From positions 1-37,912 of the IMG/VR virus record IMGVR_UViG_3300000116_000064: 37,912 nt of DNA; one strand, written 5' to 3'. A model generated the notes under the pieces. It was not told where the DNA came from. It did not search any database and saw only the letters and a program-made list of their open reading frames with translations. Of the stretch, positions 737 through 26,069 are shown piece by piece. Source of the stretch: a virus. Position 1 is the stretch's first letter; every line of letters starts with the position of its first letter. The position numbers were made by a program, and so were the translations under genes.

Positions 737-1113
737 CGTCTAAGCCTTAATATATATACAATAGCCGTATCACCTGGCTTTATCTGCTCAATCGGTAAAA
801 CCTGATAAACATCACTCCCGTCTGTGATGGTGTCCTTGTTTGTCGGTGGAGCAGTTAAAGCTGTAGCCGCTATTAAACATTTTTTGTCATCACTGCGGAT
901 TAAATCGCCGTCAATTTCCTTTAGTGTGAAATTCGTAAACAATGCCTTTGGCGTTTGCGTTGTTGCTGTGCCCGGCGTAAAAGTTCCTGCAGCAGGATTA
1001 TAAACATCAACGCCCGGCGTTGTTAATGTTACCGTGCGCCCTTTATCCTGTATCTGTGATAAGGCAACGGCTGCAAGCTTGGTATATAATTCAGACACGC
1101 ACCACCCGCGCAT
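733..1113 (-). CDS. Head closure/head-tail stopper-like protein
   Basis: The 126-residue product sits between a DnaT-like adaptor and a gp10-like gene, where head closure (stopper) proteins are found. The sequence is beta-rich and ends with SDVYQVLPIEQIKPGDTAIVYILRLRR, matching the closing strands common in small head-tail joining proteins ('Y.V..v....P.g..v.y.l..R'). Two starts are possible: ATG at 1113, with AGG about ten bases upstream, or GTG at 1098, which gives only an 8-nt overlap with the preceding gene and begins VSELYTKL. I keep the longer form. The function is inferred from gene order and general fold pattern. Confidence 0.65.
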   Translation of the reverse strand: MRGWCVSELYTKLAAVALSQIQDKGRTVTLTTPGVDVYNPAAGTFTPGTATTQTPKALFTNFTLKEIDGDLIRSDDKKCLIAATALTAPPTNKDTITDGSDVYQVLPIEQIKPGDTAIVYILRLRR

Positions 1114-1606
1114 TTAAACTTGAACCTGATAAAAGCTTTCTCAATAATCCGTCAATTGCTGGTCTTGTAGAACCTGTTCTGCCACCCTCATTGCCTGCCA
1201 TGTATTCAACCTCAATAATATCAACCTTTTCACGTTTAACAGTTTGCGTTTGCACAGGGTTTAACTCATCCCCGCCGATGCTTTCAAGGGCAAGAATACA
1301 AACGGCTTGTTTAAGCTTTTCAGGTATCGTGCCAGCAATGTCAAAATCAGTGTAATACAATTCAGGGTCATGGTAACTACGCGGCCATGCCAAAGGCTGG
1401 TTTGCCTGAGTAGGGTACCCAATCCAACGCCCATAATATACTTGCTCAACATAGTCCGTGGCTTTAATCAAAGCGGCTTGTTTAACCGCATCCGTGCCAG
1501 TCCATGTAGTGTTTCCACGATCATCATGATATGTATCAGCATAAGCTACAGATACATAACTGTTTGCACCATCAACGACCGAACCATCTGTTTGAACTAA
1601 AAACAT
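1091..1606 (-). CDS. DnaT-like head-tail adaptor protein
   Basis: The 171-residue product begins with the pattern VDGANSYVSVAYADTYHDDRG, typical of the phage family annotated as putative DnaT-like ssDNA-binding protein and now regarded as a head-tail adaptor. A conserved LAWPR motif follows near residue 70 (QPLAWPRSYHDP), as does a helical segment IPEKLKQAVCILALE that family members share. Adaptors dock on the portal and carry the stopper. An AGGAT ribosome binding site lies before ATG at 1606, just 2 nt after the preceding gene. The next gene begins inside its last codons. Confidence 0.8.
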   Translation of the reverse strand: MFLVQTDGSVVDGANSYVSVAYADTYHDDRGNTTWTGTDAVKQAALIKATDYVEQVYYGRWIGYPTQANQPLAWPRSYHDPELYYTDFDIAGTIPEKLKQAVCILALESIGGDELNPVQTQTVKREKVDIIEVEYMAGNEGGRTGSTRPAIDGLLRKLLSGSSLNARVVRV

Positions 1607-1914: not shown

Positions 1915-2056
1915 TTTCGGTTTCCTTTTTCGGGGTTAAAGCGTTATTGATAACTGCGTAACACTGGCGCAAAACCTCGTGCGTTTCTGCGTTTACGTTT
2001 AGTTGCCGCGTTGCGTTGTATAAACTGTTCAAAGCTTGTTCAGGTGCTATGTCCAT
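1892..2056 (-). CDS. Small conserved-looking protein after the fibre gene
   Basis: A 54-codon frame starts with ATG at 2056, inside the last codons of the fibre gene, and ends at 1892 inside the next gene. The peptide is a probable helical hairpin: APEQALNSLYNATRQLNVNA, then AETHEVLRQCYAVINNAL. The layout 'ALn.ly.at...l..d.he.....c...l..al' is familiar from small proteins coded beside phage tail or fibre genes. Overlaps of 10 nt upstream and 23 nt downstream support real translation. No function can be assigned. Confidence 0.6.
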   Translation of the reverse strand: MDIAPEQALNSLYNATRQLNVNAETHEVLRQCYAVINNALTPKKETENGPTENI

Positions 2057-4698
2057 GTGATTGTCCTTGTTGTTGTTCCATCGTAAAATTTTAAATTTGT
2101 ACCGTCAAACCACAAATCCCCGGCGTTCGGGCTAGTGGGGGCTGTGCCGCTTCTTATGCGGAATCCAGACTTAGATGTTGTTGATGCGGCAGTGTCTAAA
2201 ATAGCCGTAGGTGTTGTCACGCCGATCCCGACATTGCTGGCGCTGGAAATCTTCATAGCTTCACTATTGTTAATAAAAAACCTATGAACGCCGCCACTGG
2301 TGACATTGAAACGTAAATGATTTGTGCTTTCCTGATACCCAAAAAAAGCACCGAACCTCCCGGCGGCTTTTTGCATTTCAAACCCGGAATAGCCAGCCGT
2401 ATTTGAATTCCGCAGGTTCACCATTGCGGACGCTGTAGACCCATGCACTTCAAATGGGACAGTAGGTGAGTTCGTCCCAATCCCGACATTCCCACCAGAT
2501 GGATTGACGTACAAATACCCGGAAGATGTAGTCTGCAGGTCTGTATAAACGCTACCATCCGTATGCGTCAAGCGTAACTGCGGGTCAGAGCCATCAAGAA
2601 CGTCTAGTTTTCTATCCGGCCCGGTGGTGCCGATGCCTAAATTACCAGAGGTGGAAATCCTCATAGCTTCAATACGACCAACACTTGAATTAGAAACAGT
2701 AAAAGCCAGCGGGCGGCTGTCTGCGTAAATCACCTGATTTACGAAAGCTCCGAAAGACCATGCACCGGAAGGTGCGCCGGTAAATCCGCCACCAAAACCT
2801 AAAACCTGATTACCAGAAGCCACCGTGGAAGAGCCACGCAAGAGTATAAAAGCTTCCGTCGCTGTACCCGATGGCATTACACCAAATCCACCATTGTAAT
2901 TCCCGGAATTTGGCTGTGAAACTGGAAAATCAAGAGATGTGGCAAAAGATCCGCCATCTTCCTCGTAAAAAATCTTTGGATTCGTTTGATCAAACCTGAT
3001 ATTACCAGAAATTTGTAGCTTTTCGCTCGGACTACTCGTCCCTATCCCGACATTGCCCGCATCGGTAATTCTCATCCATTCTGGGGTAGAGAATTGGTCA
3101 GTAAACCTAATACCGCCAGCGCTCAGGCCCCTTATTTGCCCCCCGCTGCCAGAATTATTATTGGTCAGGCGCAGAAAAGGCTCCGCTGATGCATCGTCTC
3201 TATTAAGTGCAATTCCTCCCAAACTGTCATTTACAACAAACGGATATGTTCCTGTGAATGACGCCAAATCAGAGCCAATATTAACGGTTCCATTAACATC
3301 GAGCGTCGCGCCCGGCGAGGCCGTCCCGATGCCGACGTTGCCATCTGCATCAATAACATTCAGCGCAGTTCCGCCGCTGTTTTGAATCTCAAAAATATTA
3401 CCGCTCTGGCTAGACCCGGCCCGTATAGAAACCTGCTTGTTTGTCCCGTTGTACATACCGGTACCATATATGGTATTCCCGATATTAAGCTGGTTTGATC
3501 CAGAAGCGGACAAAGGGGTTGCGCTATATCCAAGCGCTATATTATAATTTCCACCAGTTTGATATACGTAAGACCCCAGCAACAAATTGCCGTTTCCAGT
3601 CCCCATGGAATACGCGGTGTAATACCCGGCAGCTATATTATGACCCCCACTAGTAAGGGCATTTAATGTGTTTTGCCCTAGAACCGTGTTGTATGAAACA
3701 TTAGAGCCCGATGTGAGGCAATTATAACCTAAAACAGAGTTTCCGGTTCCTGTGGTCAGTGCATTGCCTGCTCTGTATCCAAATAAAGAATTTCCACTCC
3801 CGTACGTTACGTTTTGACCAGCATACCCGCCAAAGAAAACAGAACCAACCGCAACTGTTAAGTCTTCCCCTGCGCTGTACCCGAATGTAGTCAGGCTCGG
3901 GTCCAAATTCATAGACCGCACGCCGTCTACGGAAACATAATTACTTGTTTTGTTGGGTATCGCGTCAGCTCTCCGTTCAAATATATTTGACGGTAAAGAG
4001 CTGTCCGGGATAGTGTCGATATATGTTGTTGTAACATTGTCCGCTATTGTAGCTATATAGGCCGCGTATGTGGAGCTGTCTCCAACCTTGCCGCGCAAAA
4101 TCTTTCTGCCTATAACGGTAGGATCACTTGAAACCGGTATGTTATCTATTTGTACGGACTGATTCCCGGCTGTAGTCGTAATCCCGACATAACTGCTTGC
4201 GTCCGTGTCTCCGAATTGATTGTAGTATTGAATGCGATAATAATATTGCCCTATCTCTAAATCGGTTCCGGGCAAAAGAGAAAGGGTAAATGTAGCTGGA
4301 GGGGCGTCTACAGTGGTGAGATTCACACCCTTGTTCGTGTTTATACCTGTAGCGTCCTCGTAAGAAAAACCCTGGTCAGACCCAAACGCCCCGCCGTCGT
4401 TAAATTGTATCTCTCGATTAGAGCCAGCGGGGGTTGTTTCCGGTATCGCCGCGATTAGCGCGTCAACTTCTGCCTGTGTGTATTTATCTAAATCGGTTAT
4501 ATCACTTTCTGTGTGCGTATGGCCGGTGTTTGATTTTGCATCAAGCGCAGCTTGTAAATCACCCTGACTAGATAGAGTTCCGTTTATCTCGCCCCAGTAG
4601 GTGCTAGACACGCCAGACGCAACCTCAACCGTTGCAATCACGTTTTCAGTGACTTCGACCACATTTACAGTTGATACGACATCTACGGTTTCTGTCAT
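2047..4698 (-). CDS. Large repetitive fibre-like virion protein
   Basis: The 883-residue product is a fibre or spike. Residues about 1-130 carry a collar-like part (GHTHTESDITDLDKYTQAEVDALI, split here as TESDITDLDKYT and so on). Residues about 280-410 hold YadA-head-like repeats with alternating N/G and hydrophobic residues (SLFGYRAGNALTTGTGN, SVLGYNCLTSG). The C-terminal half has five copies of a G-N-x-G-I-G-T-x-x-P motif near residues 450, 545, 685, 733 and 820, a pattern common in phage fibres that carry an S74 chaperone. No S74 peptidase domain is visible; it ends FWFDGT-type, NLKFYDGTTTRTITWT. It lies among head and connector genes, so a head fibre or neck whisker is as likely as a tail fibre. 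ATG overlaps the upstream stop (ATGA). Confidence 0.8.
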   Translation of the reverse strand: MTETVDVVSTVNVVEVTENVIATVEVASGVSSTYWGEINGTLSSQGDLQAALDAKSNTGHTHTESDITDLDKYTQAEVDALIAAIPETTPAGSNREIQFNDGGAFGSDQGFSYEDATGINTNKGVNLTTVDAPPATFTLSLLPGTDLEIGQYYYRIQYYNQFGDTDASSYVGITTTAGNQSVQIDNIPVSSDPTVIGRKILRGKVGDSSTYAAYIATIADNVTTTYIDTIPDSSLPSNIFERRADAIPNKTSNYVSVDGVRSMNLDPSLTTFGYSAGEDLTVAVGSVFFGGYAGQNVTYGSGNSLFGYRAGNALTTGTGNSVLGYNCLTSGSNVSYNTVLGQNTLNALTSGGHNIAAGYYTAYSMGTGNGNLLLGSYVYQTGGNYNIALGYSATPLSASGSNQLNIGNTIYGTGMYNGTNKQVSIRAGSSQSGNIFEIQNSGGTALNVIDADGNVGIGTASPGATLDVNGTVNIGSDLASFTGTYPFVVNDSLGGIALNRDDASAEPFLRLTNNNSGSGGQIRGLSAGGIRFTDQFSTPEWMRITDAGNVGIGTSSPSEKLQISGNIRFDQTNPKIFYEEDGGSFATSLDFPVSQPNSGNYNGGFGVMPSGTATEAFILLRGSSTVASGNQVLGFGGGFTGAPSGAWSFGAFVNQVIYADSRPLAFTVSNSSVGRIEAMRISTSGNLGIGTTGPDRKLDVLDGSDPQLRLTHTDGSVYTDLQTTSSGYLYVNPSGGNVGIGTNSPTVPFEVHGSTASAMVNLRNSNTAGYSGFEMQKAAGRFGAFFGYQESTNHLRFNVTSGGVHRFFINNSEAMKISSASNVGIGVTTPTAILDTAASTTSKSGFRIRSGTAPTSPNAGDLWFDGTNLKFYDGTTTRTITWT

Positions 4699-5048
4699 GA
4701 ATTTCTAACCCGCGTTTGAATAAGTGTAATAATACCCTTTGCAATTAAAACGGTTGGGTCCTCGCCGTTGTAGATGATGATTTCGTAATCATATGTGCCG
4801 GGTGTTAAACCTTCAGTATCAGCCGATACTATATACGGGGCTACCTTTCCAGACGCGCCCGTAATAATCAAACGGCTGCCGGACACGTCCGTACTTAATA
4901 GCTCAAGTGTATCTGTATTCGCCGTGTTGTCCATAAGCATCTTGCCATCATAAGACGATATATCAATAACATCTCCGGCCGAATCTTTATAGACAAACTC
5001 CAAAGAGTCGAATGTCACGCCTTGATACATATTAAAATTATAAGCCAC
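4695..5048 (-). CDS. Beta-rich structural protein preceding the fibre
   Basis: The 117-residue product resembles short phage proteins that precede fibre genes and act as fibre-anchoring or baseplate-like domains. Their typical pattern is 'g.tf...f.y.d..g..idlsgy...m.ir......', then 'g.i........t..l..g.Y.ydl.......', and it is matched here by QGVTFDSLEFVYKDSAGDVI and TPGTYDYEIIIYNGEDP. It starts with GTG at 5048 and its stop overlaps the fibre start by 4 nt, so the two are probably made in coupled fashion. I infer that it links the 883-residue fibre to the particle; the sequence does not prove this. Confidence 0.65.
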   Translation of the reverse strand: MAYNFNMYQGVTFDSLEFVYKDSAGDVIDISSYDGKMLMDNTANTDTLELLSTDVSGSRLIITGASGKVAPYIVSADTEGLTPGTYDYEIIIYNGEDPTVLIAKGIITLIQTRVRNS

Positions 5049-5050
5049 GG

Positions 5051-5260
5051 TTATTTACTTTTCTTTTTTATGTTTGTTTTTTTAACTGGTTTTTCTTCGA
5101 TATATTCAGTCAATACATCATCCTCATCAAAAACCTCTATCTCTTTTTTTATTATCTTTGGTGCTTTCTTAAGCTGTATTTGTGCGTTCGGGTCTTTCTT
5201 TAATTCTTCTTTAATCGCTTGGTGAACCCCGCGTGGGTCATTGCTATATATAACTGTCAT
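5051..5260 (-). CDS. Small lysine-rich-tailed protein A
   Basis: The 69-residue product has an N-terminal globular-looking part and a C-terminal tail with EEKPVKKTNIKKKSK. That tail closely resembles the tail of the 83-residue protein at 5840-6091 (EEKPAKKKSAKKKK), so the two genes flanking the sialyltransferase-like gene share a C-terminal module. The start ATG at 5260 is preceded by GGGGAG. The gene overlaps the glycosyltransferase-like gene by 17 nt. Short phage proteins with such lysine-rich ends often occur after capsid genes; their function is unknown. Confidence 0.65.
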   Translation of the reverse strand: MTVIYSNDPRGVHQAIKEELKKDPNAQIQLKKAPKIIKKEIEVFDEDDVLTEYIEEKPVKKTNIKKKSK

Positions 5261-5843
5261 CGTATGCTCCCCATAAATATTTTATTTTTATGCCGAATTT
5301 ATCACTTATTACACCAACCATTTTATTTTCGTAAGCGTAATTATGCCTGTTATTTTCAGACTTTCCTATAAATTCATCGCTTTCCAATATACCGCTTAAC
5401 TCATGGTATTGCGTGATTTTACCGTTCGCTACAGAGTCAAACCCTGCAAGATAGATTTCCTTTGGCTTTAAGTGAATGGCAGTCATAAGAACTGCCGCTA
5501 AGCCCATTGTCGGTGCTTTTCCTGTCTTAAATATCTCGTGAAATGTATCATCAATATTGAAATGATGAACCTGTCTGCCTTCAACTTCTTTTACATTCAG
5601 GTATTTTTTATGTTTGCCAAAGCTATACAACAACCACCCCTCATCAGGAACCATTGTTATTTGTTCTCTGGCCTCTGATAACCAAGGCGCGGGCAAAATA
5701 CCGTAGTCGTATTTCTTGCCAAAGTCTGCCGGGTAGGTATTTTTAAACTCATGCATACGGATAACAATATCCATACCGTCGATATACTCACCCATCCATG
5801 AGTTATAAACAGATGAACCGTTTCCTACGATGCAGGCTCTCAT
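5244..5843 (-). CDS. Sialyltransferase-like glycosyltransferase (GT29-like)
   Basis: The 199-residue product matches the GT29 sialyltransferase plan. It opens with IVGNGSSV (residues 5-12) followed by DIVIRMHEF (25-33), comparable to the large sialyl motif 'vVGNGg.l.......ID..D.ViR.N'. Residues 108-137 (TGKAPTMGLAAVL, IYLAGFDS) fit the small motif 'PstG......al..cd.v.lyGF'. H167 and E172 form an HxxxxE arrangement like motif VS. GT29 enzymes transfer sialic acid from CMP-sugars; whether this one uses that donor is unknown. It lies within the head operon, coupled by ATGA to the upstream lysine-rich gene. No signal peptide or membrane anchor is seen, so it should act in the cytoplasm. Confidence 0.7.
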   Translation of the reverse strand: MRACIVGNGSSVYNSWMGEYIDGMDIVIRMHEFKNTYPADFGKKYDYGILPAPWLSEAREQITMVPDEGWLLYSFGKHKKYLNVKEVEGRQVHHFNIDDTFHEIFKTGKAPTMGLAAVLMTAIHLKPKEIYLAGFDSVANGKITQYHELSGILESDEFIGKSENNRHNYAYENKMVGVISDKFGIKIKYLWGAYDDSYI

Positions 5844-6091
5844 TTCTTTTTCTTGGCCGATTTCTTTTTAGCAGGCTTTTCTTCAGTGGCTTCTTTGCTG
5901 ATTTCCTCTGCGGGGGTTTTTTCTTCAATTTCGGCTTTAACAGTAGCTTTACGGTTGATTCCCTCAAGCCGTTCTTTTTCCATTTTCTTTGCTACGTTAA
6001 AACACACGTTTTTAATTTTGTCAGTCTGCATATAAACTGGTAGTGGCTGAACTCTATCTGTCGAGCCTGTAACATCACATTTTAAGAACAT
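5840..6091 (-). CDS. Small lysine-rich-tailed protein B
   Basis: The 83-residue product begins MFLKCDVTGSTDRVQPLPVY and ends in a highly charged tail with EEKPAKKKSAKKKK. The tail matches that of the 69-residue protein on the other side of the glycosyltransferase-like gene, so the pair look like diverged copies or proteins with a common tail function. ATG at 6091 is preferred over TTG at 6097; both overlap the upstream gene's stop region. Its last codons overlap the next gene's ATG. The abundant lysine could suit binding to nucleic acid or to acidic surfaces, but this is inference. Confidence 0.65.
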   Translation of the reverse strand: MFLKCDVTGSTDRVQPLPVYMQTDKIKNVCFNVAKKMEKERLEGINRKATVKAEIEEKTPAEEISKEATEEKPAKKKSAKKKK

Positions 6092-6917
6092 AATCAAAAG
6101 CCTTTCCGTTTGCTATCTCGTCCCGTGTCCACTGTGCATAAGCCAATCTATGAAGATAGTTTTCTATGCCCTCTGGATAGGTAATATTTGGTTGTATTTC
6201 ATTATACGCAAGCTCGCTATAAGTCGGTGCATATTCACACGCGGTATCACAAATAACAGGAATACCCGCTAAGAGCGCGTCATTTCCTACATTTGAATTA
6301 TGGCAGTACACCGCAAAAGCCCCTTCCAAGTCATCCTCAATCGGACAATCAGGTAATTCCTCTTGTGGTATATCTTTATTCATAGGGTGTCTGCGCTTTT
6401 TATACGGTATCCCTAACTCTTCACATCTTTGTACTGCTTTATTCATCCATTCATTTAATTCGTTTAAATCCATCCCGTGGCTAGCATCATTTGGCGTCTG
6501 CTCACATATAAGTAAATAATCGCCTCCACGCGGTTTTGGATAGTCCAAATCTAAGGCTTCCCATCTATCACTAGGCGCATCATCAGGAAGCCAATTCAAA
6601 CCACCCTTAGAAACCTGCCAGTATCCCTCATATCCATTTGAGCGCATCGCTCTCTTGATATAACCAAGGTCAATAGCAATGCATGGTATACCCCTGCGCT
6701 CGTGTTCAGCAATAATACGTTTCCCAAAATGCCTCATGCCGTATATCACGCATAAATCACAATCCATCCATTCGTTTTCACGAAAGCCGTTTTGAGCGAC
6801 TTGATTTATTTCATATCCATGCTCTAAAAGCCCCTTTACCGTGGCGCTTGGAGAATGGGAATGAGAGGAATGCAGGGGATCAACGTCCCCCGCATACCAA
6901 AAGTTTACTTTAGCCAA
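6075..6917 (-). CDS. Capsule-synthesis/glycosyltransferase-like protein
   Basis: The open frame extends back into the capsid gene, but the sensible start is TTG at 6917, overlapping the capsid stop by 8 nt and giving 280 residues (MAKVNFWYAGDVD). Residues 204-222 read YCHNSNVGNDALLAGIPVI, which fits the C-terminal pattern of capsule-synthesis and related GT-B-type proteins ('t.NS.vg.eALl.GkPVi'). A later region has WTRDEIANGKAFDYV (263-277), another recurring element of such proteins. This suggests binding of a nucleotide sugar or glycan. Its target is unknown. It directly follows the major capsid gene and precedes the sialyltransferase-like gene, so the two may modify one glycan. Confidence 0.55.
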   Translation of the reverse strand: MAKVNFWYAGDVDPLHSSHSHSPSATVKGLLEHGYEINQVAQNGFRENEWMDCDLCVIYGMRHFGKRIIAEHERRGIPCIAIDLGYIKRAMRSNGYEGYWQVSKGGLNWLPDDAPSDRWEALDLDYPKPRGGDYLLICEQTPNDASHGMDLNELNEWMNKAVQRCEELGIPYKKRRHPMNKDIPQEELPDCPIEDDLEGAFAVYCHNSNVGNDALLAGIPVICDTACEYAPTYSELAYNEIQPNITYPEGIENYLHRLAYAQWTRDEIANGKAFDYVLKM

Positions 6918-7911
6918 GAGCGTTAGCCTTCTTGGTTTTGATCTGGATACCGGGCAGTGACTTAAGTGCAGTCGCTGACTTCGTCCAATTAGAGCTTGTT
7001 GCCAATTGTGCAACAGTCGGGTTGGCAGTTGATGTGCTGAAAGACAAGCCCTTAAGCCCAAGAGCGTGGTTTTGTTCAGCTTGCATACGTGTGTAGATAT
7101 TCTCCGCACCGCCTACTTTCTCAATCAAGACATCACCAACGCGTGTTTCCTGTACTTCAGCCGCACCAGCCACAAGACCATAAGTCGTGTAGTAGTTGTC
7201 TGTCGATACAGAGGAAGAGCCGTTATTAAACAGTGCGTCTGAATCAGTCACAACAACAGGGCGGCCAAGTGTACCCGGTGAACCACCATAAATAACAGTC
7301 CCGGCTACGCTGTCAATCTTATCTGTGATTGCCTGTCCTTGAAGCTCAAAGAACACACTAGAGTGCATCACCCACGCTACAATACTAGAAGCTTTATCAC
7401 CAAACTTAGCAAGACCATTATTTAAAATACTATGTGTGATTGTCGCACTTGAGCTGTCTTGAACCAAACTTGAAAGTCCAGCAACTGCATAAGCACCTTG
7501 AAGTCCATAAAGCACAACGTCAATCTGTTCTTTAAGAACGTCATCAGCCGCCTGCTGTCCTAGCAAGAATACCATCTCGTCCATAGACATGTTGCCTTTG
7601 TGCAAAGCTTCGTCTGTAAACTCAACAGGACCGATTTTAATTGAACGGTCAACTTTAACGATTTCACTTTGTGTTGCTTTAAGCCCTGTCGCAGCAGATG
7701 TGCTTGTCAGGTCACGACGTGTTACAAGGTTTGAGATTTTCGCAAGGTATGATTGCTTGATAAACTCGCCGTTTGTAACGTCAGATGATAACAAGATAGA
7801 ATTTGCAGAACTCGCATTGAATACCGCAAGGTTTTGTTCGACACGCTCGGTGTAACCAGCAAAGAACTGCTCGTTATAAACCTTCATGTCACTTGGTAAT
7901 GAAATAGCCAT
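6910..7911 (-). CDS. Major capsid protein
   Basis: The 333-residue product has the length, position and character of an HK97-fold major capsid protein. It follows a scaffold gene and starts MAISLPSDMKVYNEQFFAGYTE. The middle includes VDRSIKIGPVEFTDEALHKG and a helical stretch like the capsid spine helix (DVLKEQIDVVLYGLQGAYA). The C-terminal half has GTLGRPVVVTDSDALF, a typical phrase of the coat family that packs with DUF4055 portals. No N-terminal protease-processed delta domain is evident; scaffolding is supplied by a separate gene. An AGGAG ribosome binding site precedes ATG at 7911. Confidence 0.9.
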   Translation of the reverse strand: MAISLPSDMKVYNEQFFAGYTERVEQNLAVFNASSANSILLSSDVTNGEFIKQSYLAKISNLVTRRDLTSTSAATGLKATQSEIVKVDRSIKIGPVEFTDEALHKGNMSMDEMVFLLGQQAADDVLKEQIDVVLYGLQGAYAVAGLSSLVQDSSSATITHSILNNGLAKFGDKASSIVAWVMHSSVFFELQGQAITDKIDSVAGTVIYGGSPGTLGRPVVVTDSDALFNNGSSSVSTDNYYTTYGLVAGAAEVQETRVGDVLIEKVGGAENIYTRMQAEQNHALGLKGLSFSTSTANPTVAQLATSSNWTKSATALKSLPGIQIKTKKANALG

Positions 7912-15554: not shown

Positions 15555-15708
15555 TTTGATAATCCTTTATCTCTTTTTCTATTTCCCTTTGTACTTTTTT
15601 ACGCACTCCACCTTTTGTTTCAGGTACGTCTAAGTTTGTTTTATGATAATAACAACAAGGGCAATTTGCTCTATTACTGTTATTTGCTTGTCTTTCCAAA
15701 GGTTTCAT
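15544..15708 (-). CDS. Small Cys-rich protein
   Basis: A 54-codon frame starts with ATG at 15708, overlapping the upstream stop by one base (TGATG), and ends 11 nt inside the next gene. The peptide has a compact NCPCCYYHK motif followed by a long basic/acidic helix (RKKVQREIEKEIKDYQNDR). The two or three cysteines with His could bind a metal. It occupies the position held by the 72-residue gene in the mirrored rightward cassette. Confidence 0.6.
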   Translation of the reverse strand: MKPLERQANNSNRANCPCCYYHKTNLDVPETKGGVRKKVQREIEKEIKDYQNDR

Positions 15709-16430
15709 CACTCCCCCTTATCCGCGAGTAGTGCGGCGTGTTTTTTAGCAGCATCTCTAATAACCGTATGTTTGCTTGCTGATATTTTCTTCGCATCTTC
15801 TAAAGCTGAGAAATAAGGCTCGCTTACATCCTCCCGCTTCACCGCTATGGTGTCATCGTCAATCTTGACGATTTCTTTTGCATGTTCATCGTTATGTGTA
15901 AAGTTTTTGGCTTTTTCTTTACATGTGTCGGGGGTGGTGAGCCGCTTTTTCAGTTCTTCAAATAAGTTGTTAAGTCCGTTTTCATGTGCCCAGCCTAATT
16001 CACCGCCCCATATAAAATCGCTGACCTTACAGGCAAAATCTTGTAGCTCCGCATGTGAAGAGTCGTTTTCGTGTGTATTTGGTGGAATAGAATAGCCCTT
16101 ATTAAGAGCCTCTAGTTCACGAACAGCATCACCGAGATCAGTTAGCCAATCTCCCTCGTGCCATGTTTCAATACCGTCTTTGCGTTTTTTGATGTCTAGT
16201 GTTTTTCGTGGCTTTAATTCTGCAAACAAATCGCGGCCGTCTACATGGCTGTAAGAAAGCCCAATCACTTTATTAATCGCTTCGATTACATCCACCTGCG
16301 GACGCTCTAGGGCGGCGCGGATTGTTTGAATTGCTGTTTGAACTTCACTATGTCGAATAGATTGCTCTTTTTCATTCCATGAAGAAAAATCTTCTATAAC
16401 ATCCAAAGCTTCAATCGCGTCTTTATTCAT
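15708..16430 (-). CDS. Accessory protein of the MNKDAI mosaic family, left copy
   Basis: ATG at 16430 (MNKDAIEALDVIED) is the natural start because it overlaps the stop of the leader peptide; this gives 240 residues. Conserved segments shared with the rightward gene at 25296-26069 are MNKDAIxALD, IRAALERPQVDV, DDTIAVKREDV and AALLADKGE. Between them the sequence differs. Some segments are nearly identical at DNA level, so the two genes have exchanged pieces recently. The variable cores are helical and polar. I know no function; the pattern is that of an accessory protein with interchangeable middle parts. Confidence 0.7.
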   Translation of the reverse strand: MNKDAIEALDVIEDFSSWNEKEQSIRHSEVQTAIQTIRAALERPQVDVIEAINKVIGLSYSHVDGRDLFAELKPRKTLDIKKRKDGIETWHEGDWLTDLGDAVRELEALNKGYSIPPNTHENDSSHAELQDFACKVSDFIWGGELGWAHENGLNNLFEELKKRLTTPDTCKEKAKNFTHNDEHAKEIVKIDDDTIAVKREDVSEPYFSALEDAKKISASKHTVIRDAAKKHAALLADKGE

Positions 16431-16485
16431 TGGTTTGTTCCTCACATTGTTTAACACACTGCTTAATAATTTCAATCTCGGTCAT
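16423..16485 (-). CDS. Leader peptide (20 codons), left copy
   Basis: ATG at 16485, preceded by GTGAGG, encodes MTEIEIIKQCVKQCEEQTNE. Its stop overlaps the ATG of the 240-residue gene (ATGAATAA). The rightward cassette has the same leader (16 of 20 residues identical by eye). Conservation at protein level and identical overlap suggest it is translated and couples translation of the gene behind it. Confidence 0.65.
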   Translation of the reverse strand: MTEIEIIKQCVKQCEEQTNE

Positions 16486-25244: not shown

Positions 25245-25303
25245 CCGAGATTGAAACCATTAAGCTATGTGTTAAACAATGGGAGAAACAAAACAATGAA
25301 TAA
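25241..25303 (+). CDS. Leader peptide (20 codons), right copy
   Basis: ATG at 25241 overlaps the previous stop (ATGA) and encodes MTEIETIKLCVKQWEKQNNE. Its stop overlaps the ATG of the 257-residue gene exactly as in the left cassette. The left copy differs at 4 of 20 residues by eye. Confidence 0.6.
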   Translation: MTEIETIKLCVKQWEKQNNE

Positions 25304-26069
25304 AGACGCGATTAAGGCTTTGGATGAGATTTATTTTGAAGCACAACAATATAATAAAACTTGCTCTTCATCTGACTGGAAAAATAATTGCAAGAAAAAC
25401 TATGAAACAATCCGCGCCGCCCTAGAGCGTCCATCCGTATCTAAATACTGTAAAGATGCTGAACAAACAGCTAAACAGCATGAAAAACTTATTGAGTGGC
25501 GACAAAAACTAGAAAGTGAAATCGCACCACTCTTAGGTTTTGAACGTGATGAAGAATACGGATGGGTTACGGGTGAAGCGTGTTTAGACGATTTGTTATA
25601 TATGCTGATTGTAAGGTACAAAAAGTTTCTAGAGCGTCCGCAGGTGGATGTTGATGAACAACACATGTGTGACACCAATAAGTTTAAGCGCGGTGATTAT
25701 GTCCGTAAAAAAGGCGACAAAGGGCAATGGCATGGTGTTATATGCGGCACATACAGCACAGATTGTACGCCGATAGGGTACGCAGTCGAAAGTGTGTTTG
25801 AGAGAAATTCAGTGCAGATATATCCCGAAAGCGCATTAGAGCCGTGGGAAAAACCCGACACCATAGCGGTGAAGCGGGAGGATGTGCCTGAGGGGGTGAA
25901 AAATCTAATTGCTGAAATTGATCTAACATTAGATTACTTTGTTGTTGAGTTTCCAGAGGATCAATTCCCGCAGGTTTGGAATGACCCTATAAGCCACTAT
26001 TCAGGCGGCATAAGCCCGAACGATTTATTAAAGATCAAAGCCGCACTCGCGGATAAGGGGGTTGTATGA
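25296..26069 (+). CDS. Accessory protein of the MNKDAI mosaic family, right copy
   Basis: ATG at 25296 gives 257 residues and overlaps the leader stop. It shares MNKDAIKALDEI, IRAALERP, FLERPQVDV, DTIAVKREDV and a final AALADKG with the left copy. Between residues about 43 and 112 it has a segment flanked by two LERP copies, absent from the left gene. The middle also has KFKRGDYVRKKGDKGQWHGV and IQIYPE-like parts, which look like a small beta-barrel (KOW/SH3-like) unit. Function unknown. Confidence 0.7.
   Translation: MNKDAIKALDEIYFEAQQYNKTCSSSDWKNNCKKNYETIRAALERPSVSKYCKDAEQTAKQHEKLIEWRQKLESEIAPLLGFERDEEYGWVTGEACLDDLLYMLIVRYKKFLERPQVDVDEQHMCDTNKFKRGDYVRKKGDKGQWHGVICGTYSTDCTPIGYAVESVFERNSVQIYPESALEPWEKPDTIAVKREDVPEGVKNLIAEIDLTLDYFVVEFPEDQFPQVWNDPISHYSGGISPNDLLKIKAALADKGVV
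25422..25639 (+). repeat. CTAGAGCGTCC direct repeats bounding a 207-bp in-frame segment
   Basis: CTAGAGCGTCC occurs at 25422-25432 and 25629-25639, exactly 207 bp (69 codons) apart. The left paralogue has a single copy (reverse strand, 16300-16310) whose upstream flank matches copy 1 and whose downstream flank matches copy 2. Confidence 0.8.

Follow-up and report, generated by a model that had tools for sequence, protein, structure and literature searches.

The sequence analysed is the IMG/VR record IMGVR_UViG_3300000116_000064 from an uncultured phage, 37,912 bases in length, and this whole stretch of DNA is referred to below as the window. Positions 5051 to 6917 contain four open reading frames (ORFs) on the minus strand, which lie between the capsid gene and the genes for a 117-aa protein and a fibre protein. 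The initial annotation had counted two glycan-enzyme genes here; both enzyme genes are present, but the stretch also holds two ORFs for small lysine-rich proteins. In the order of transcription, the genes of the region are as follows:

6910 to 7911, minus strand: major capsid protein (MCP), Gp13-like (PF20036, E = 7.5e-79; phrog_247, E = 1.7e-45).
6075 to 6917, minus strand: KpsC/Capsule_synth-like protein of 280 aa with a TTG start, a predicted retaining beta-Kdo (ulosonate) transferase (motifs, Foldseek search, conservation in the sister contigs L002 and L012).
5840 to 6091, minus strand: lysine-rich small protein, 83 aa from the ATG at 6091 (85 aa from the TTG at 6097), with a KKKSAKKKK tail (ORF).
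5244 to 5843, minus strand: GT29 sialyltransferase-family protein of 199 aa (PF00777, E = 3.1e-8; motifs L, S and HxxxxE).
5051 to 5260, minus strand: second lysine-rich small protein, 69 aa (ORF alone).
4695 to 5048, minus strand: 117-aa phage protein, phrog_1084 (function unknown; E = 1.3e-10).
2047 to 4698, minus strand: fibre protein of 883 aa (phrog_9942, E = 1.7e-22).
1091 to 1606, minus strand: head-completion/connector-type gene (Pfam name DnaT_2; PF20557, E = 1.1e-43), with counterparts at L002:3098-3601 and L012:9716-10216.

The TTG start of the KpsC-like gene at 6917 overlaps the MCP stop by 8 nt, the first lysine-rich ORF overlaps the KpsC-like ORF by 17 nt, the GT29 ORF overlaps the first lysine-rich ORF by 4 nt (ATGA), and the second lysine-rich ORF overlaps the GT29 ORF by 17 nt. 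The ORFs, their coordinates and the 4-17 nt overlaps given in the initial annotation were thus reproduced. This tight coupling with the capsid gene and among the genes themselves implies late co-expression with the virion genes, as had been proposed, and the conserved position in the sister phages described below adds support. No clear promoter signal emerged from scanning (22 found as against 15.4 expected), and between positions 900 and 9000 the number of terminator-like sites was 16 as compared with 6.8 expected from shuffles. Over the GT29 stretch the GC content drops to 0.36-0.40, compared with about 0.43-0.48 across most of the surrounding region. Searches against Pfam and PHROG profiles yielded no family match above the cut-off for the first lysine-rich protein and no significant one for the second.

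Several other features of the window deserve mention. The name of the 1091-1606 gene product, "DnaT_2, putative DnaT-like ssDNA binding", looks like a misnomer, as its position and its counterparts in the sister contigs suggest a head-completion type. The fibre gene lies within the head operon, in the capsid-connector interval, and may encode a fibre that belongs to the head and not to the tail. The ORFs at 25251-26069 (plus strand) and 15708-16475 (minus strand) have alike N-termini (MK.LS.VLNN.RNK.MNKDAI.ALD), which suggests a gene duplication.

The retaining beta-Kdo transferases are defined by a QXXXD motif containing the nucleophilic Asp and by a CMP-binding (K/R)XHP motif (PMC10148158, PMC12887879). 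In the 280-aa protein these motifs read QTPND (residues 140-144) and RRHP (residues 175-178). The distance from Asp144 to RRHP is 31 residues, and 30-31 across the homologues, compared with 32 in KpsC, where we counted from Asp160 to Lys192 (peptide numbering of PMC10148158) and infer that Lys192 is the K of KXHP. Shuffling the window protein 200,000 times produced the same arrangement in 158 cases. L002, L012 and the distant podovirus ct7QV12 retain both QXXXD and HP, and the narrower pattern QxPxD is invariant in four phage homologues, one of which is only 29% identical. When the structure model was compared with 350,542 chains by Foldseek, the best four PDB matches were the E. coli and Thermosulfurimonas KpsC structures (8fuw, 6mgc, 8fux and 6mgb), and WbbB was also listed; the model is a weak one (pLDDT 54), and the top match had an E-value of 7.8e-5 and a probability of 1.0 but a TM-score of only 0.32.

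Profile searches were less informative. The sequence profile of the KpsC-like protein placed KpsC among the top PDB matches, but at E = 0.4, a wider profile (A3) returned only noise from the PDB, and the NCBIfam search gave no matches. The family search suggested by the initial annotation did not bear out membership in the capsule-synthesis family: the window protein had no match to PF05159 (Capsule_synth) in the Pfam search, and its counterpart in L002 reached 16.1 bits (E = 0.008), under the cut-off of 20. We therefore rejected the assignment to Capsule_synth and call the protein KpsC-like rather than a family member; as Pfam is insufficient by itself, this designation rests on the motifs and the fold search. 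The protein shares QXXXD and (K/R)XHP at matching spacing with KpsC (GT107), WbbB (GT99) and KrkA (GT140), the group that also gives the best fold matches of its low-confidence model, but it differs from them in being a single short module (275-283 aa) whose sequence similarity lies below the family cut-offs. The overlap with the capsid stop given in the initial annotation holds (8 nt), the PF05159 threshold is not reached, and we regard the KpsC-like identity as probable from the motifs and the ranking of KpsC in the fold search with the weak model.

Homologues of this protein were also found in other phages. In Caulobacter phage C1 (gp164; L010:4776-5636) and Pelagibacter phage Mosig (Mosig_00185; L009:4938-5756) they likewise lie beside other transferase/methyltransferase-type genes, but in both proteins the aligned position lacks the Asp of QXXXD, and the His of the HP motif is missing as well. 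There is hence no need to assume the Kdo mechanism for them, and they may have an activity different from Kdo transfer. An alignment that includes the two was too diverse for collection searches. An unannotated KpsC-like ORF with intact motifs is also present in podovirus ct7QV12 (MW202713.1), at L008:4792-5613, beside an aminotransferase-like gene and the terminase; the match to this ORF carried the name of the neighbouring PLP-enzyme.

The assignment of the 199-aa protein to GT29 is supported by several sequence comparisons. In the Pfam search it scored above the PF00777 cut-off (33.8 bits vs 23, E = 3.1e-8), and 34.9 bits when both the L- and S-motif stretches were counted. Motif L occupies residues 4-45 and motif S residues about 104-137, followed by H167-x4-E172. 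The four closest relatives in IMG/VR are 29-37% identical over the matched stretches (overall identity to the nearest phage relatives is about 28%), and I21-D22-D25-R29, G114, H147 and H167-E172 are invariant in all five proteins, so that motifs L, S, III and VS occur in order, each region with invariant residues, and include a candidate catalytic His. A profile built from the five proteins could be aligned to pig ST3Gal1 from end to end (E = 7.7e-7), with both conserved His regions inside the alignment, and it matched the GT42 enzyme CstII more weakly. The sialyltransferase-like gene with large, small and HxxxxE motifs was accordingly recovered as first described. The phage protein shares with pig ST3Gal1 (PDB 2wnb/2wml) motif L (G-x-G ... 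IDxxDIVIRM), motif S (P-T-x-G), the motif III-region His and HxxxxE, but it is only 199 aa long, and neither an N-terminal membrane anchor nor any signal or membrane segment is apparent by eye. Its AlphaFold model was built without an alignment (pLDDT 29) and is for this reason unusable. An MptE-like identity (PF01973) was discarded, as that match was weak (E = 0.15) and the PF00777 match far stronger.

To judge which parts of the locus are stable, we turned to the two sister contigs, L002 and L012, whose capsid protein is 80% identical to that of the window. The KpsC-like gene follows the MCP gene directly in both, at 66% (L002) and 63% (L012) identity, and the identities among the three phages range from 61 to 66%. 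In L012 it is followed by a small lysine-rich gene in the same place as in the window (8806-9144 of L012), then by a methyltransferase-like gene (PF13489, E = 8.4e-6, just under the cut-off) in the slot occupied by GT29 in the window, and then by the connector gene. In L002 the connector gene comes immediately after the KpsC-like gene, leaving the GT29 slot empty and the KpsC-like gene as the only recognised enzyme of the cassette. The fibre gene had no match in the L002 or L012 records, both of which are possibly fragments. Taken together with the drop in GC content, the comparison indicates that the KpsC-like gene is stable in this phage group while GT29 and the fibre are variable, and the presence of either a methyltransferase-like gene or nothing in the GT29 slot indicates cassette exchange. 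The description of the genes as inserted into the head operon hence fits the GT29/fibre part, which is missing there in the two sister contigs, but not the KpsC-like gene, which is kept in all three phages.

GT29-like enzymes in phages had been called unusual. This applies to isolates, where only distant matches were obtained among 50,697 records, but not to IMG/VR, where at least 61 contigs carry GT29 (61 of the 65 retrieved with one motif). Single-sequence searches with the protein found nothing in viral contigs, genome contigs or phage isolates, and it was a motif-based DNA pattern that recovered the GT29 contigs where these searches had failed. In the contigs of the closest relatives (L057, L044 and L062) a short-type GT29 gene occupies the same genomic slot, upstream of the connector genes, and is clustered with methyltransferase, sulfotransferase and other transferase-like genes. 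The capsid gene precedes the cluster in L057 and L062, where an MptE-like gene lies beside GT29; contig L044 ends inside the cluster before any capsid gene, and its capsid side is inferred. These are otherwise different phages with larger clusters than that of the window: the capsid of L057 belongs to another family (PF19774), and the KpsC-like gene was not detected in L057, L044 or L062 by a search without a positive control among the records. Other viral GT29 genes lie elsewhere, e.g., beside ribonucleotide reductase genes, which implies that the slot is not universal.

The recurrence of these clusters suggests that phages use the post-capsid slot to acquire surface-sugar functions. However, in Vibrio phage vB_VnaS-L3 the interval between the capsid and head-closure genes is occupied by a putative DNA methylase gene (L160:5376-6173), which indicates that the slot takes non-glycan genes too. 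The enzyme genes could thus be cargo in a tolerated capsid-connector position with no selected role in this phage, and the low GC content of the GT29 stretch would be consistent with a recent arrival. We consider this improbable, as the catalytic motifs are intact and the KpsC-like gene has been kept in all three phages at 61-66% identity, its QXXXD and HP motifs being invariant.

Both signatures point to CMP-activated ulosonic-acid donors, and that of the KpsC-like protein suggests Kdo or a related ulosonate more than sialic acid. The profile search found no CMP-sugar synthetase (PF02348) in the contig, which is consistent with the use of host CMP-sugars; CMP-Kdo is made by most Gram-negative bacteria. 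Most likely, the two enzymes act at a late stage of infection and transfer sugars resembling Kdo or sialic acid. Judging from the motifs, the KpsC-like enzyme would draw Kdo (or a related ulosonate) from the host CMP-beta-Kdo pool and transfer it by a two-step double displacement in which Asp144 acts as the nucleophile and RRHP binds CMP. In KpsC, replacing the corresponding residue (D160C) leaves a protein that is modified with Kdo almost completely in vivo (PMC10148158). The GT29 enzyme would then add a second sugar, sialic-acid-like or Kdo-like, by inverting transfer, with His167 as a candidate base. To our knowledge, neither the GT29 nor the KpsC-type family acts on DNA; moreover, both signatures are those of CMP-ulosonate transferases, and the partner genes in related cassettes are sulfotransferases and methyltransferases. 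These observations make it very unlikely that the small enzymes modify a small molecule, a nucleotide or a base of the phage DNA instead of a surface glycan, although PMC12619734 describes phage glycosyltransferases as commonly acting on DNA.

The acceptor is less evident. The virion is slightly preferred over the host envelope, given the late expression together with the capsid, and the acceptor could be a glycan on the capsid, the lysine-rich small protein or the fibre, whose extension would create an acidic, exchangeable coat. We therefore put forward, tentatively and at somewhat below even chances, that the locus encodes two late, capsid-co-translated CMP-ulosonate glycosyltransferases whose likeliest acceptor is a particle glycan. 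As the known transferases for Kdo and sialic acid mostly elongate sugars that are already in place, an enzyme on its own might just as well use a glycan of the host as acceptor. Among the window proteins that were examined, none was recognised as a protein-initiating glycosyltransferase. Considering also that the KpsC-like enzyme stands alone in L002, where it needs a pre-existing glycan acceptor, remodelling of the host envelope is nearly as likely, at a probability of roughly one in three. In that case, the enzymes would act late on envelope glycans (the LPS inner core, lipooligosaccharide or capsule), which would help the released progeny to avoid binding to debris and infected cells and would exclude competing phages; the KpsC and WbbB relatives indeed work on lipid-linked or O-antigen glycans. 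However, the site right behind the capsid gene and the coupling imply late, abundant expression, whereas the known genes for exclusion or seroconversion are mostly transcribed early in infection or from a prophage. Furthermore, no tyrosine-type integrase was found in the contig, which does not favour lysogenic conversion, and no membrane-anchor segment is apparent by eye.

Modification of the particle, the reading we slightly prefer, has few precedents, as we know of few cases of glycosylated phage particles. The closest are the glycosylated virions of the mycobacteriophage Che8 and its relatives, in which phage-encoded glycosyltransferases likewise provide a capsid glycan (Freeman et al. 2023, as cited in PMC11256854 and PMC12619734), but in Maravista the genes for these enzymes map close to the 3' genome end, unlike the post-capsid genes of the window. 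In the literature searched we found no relevant report on GT29 in phages or on phage-encoded Kdo transferases, and none of a phage in which a KpsC-like, retaining transferase of the Kdo type occurs together with a GT29 enzyme. The fuller proposition, that a Kdo- or sialic-acid-like self-coat is made from the host CMP-ulosonate pool by KpsC-type and GT29 enzymes encoded in an exchangeable post-capsid slot on which distant phages have converged, is more speculative, and we would give it only about one chance in four.

The short phage GT29 proteins may represent compact relatives of the sialyltransferases, and in metagenomic phages the recurring capsid-connector slot offers a practical starting point when searching for enzymes that modify the virion. 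Should the cassette serve to decorate particles, environmental phages would vary their surface charge and recognition by using the sugar nucleotides of their hosts.
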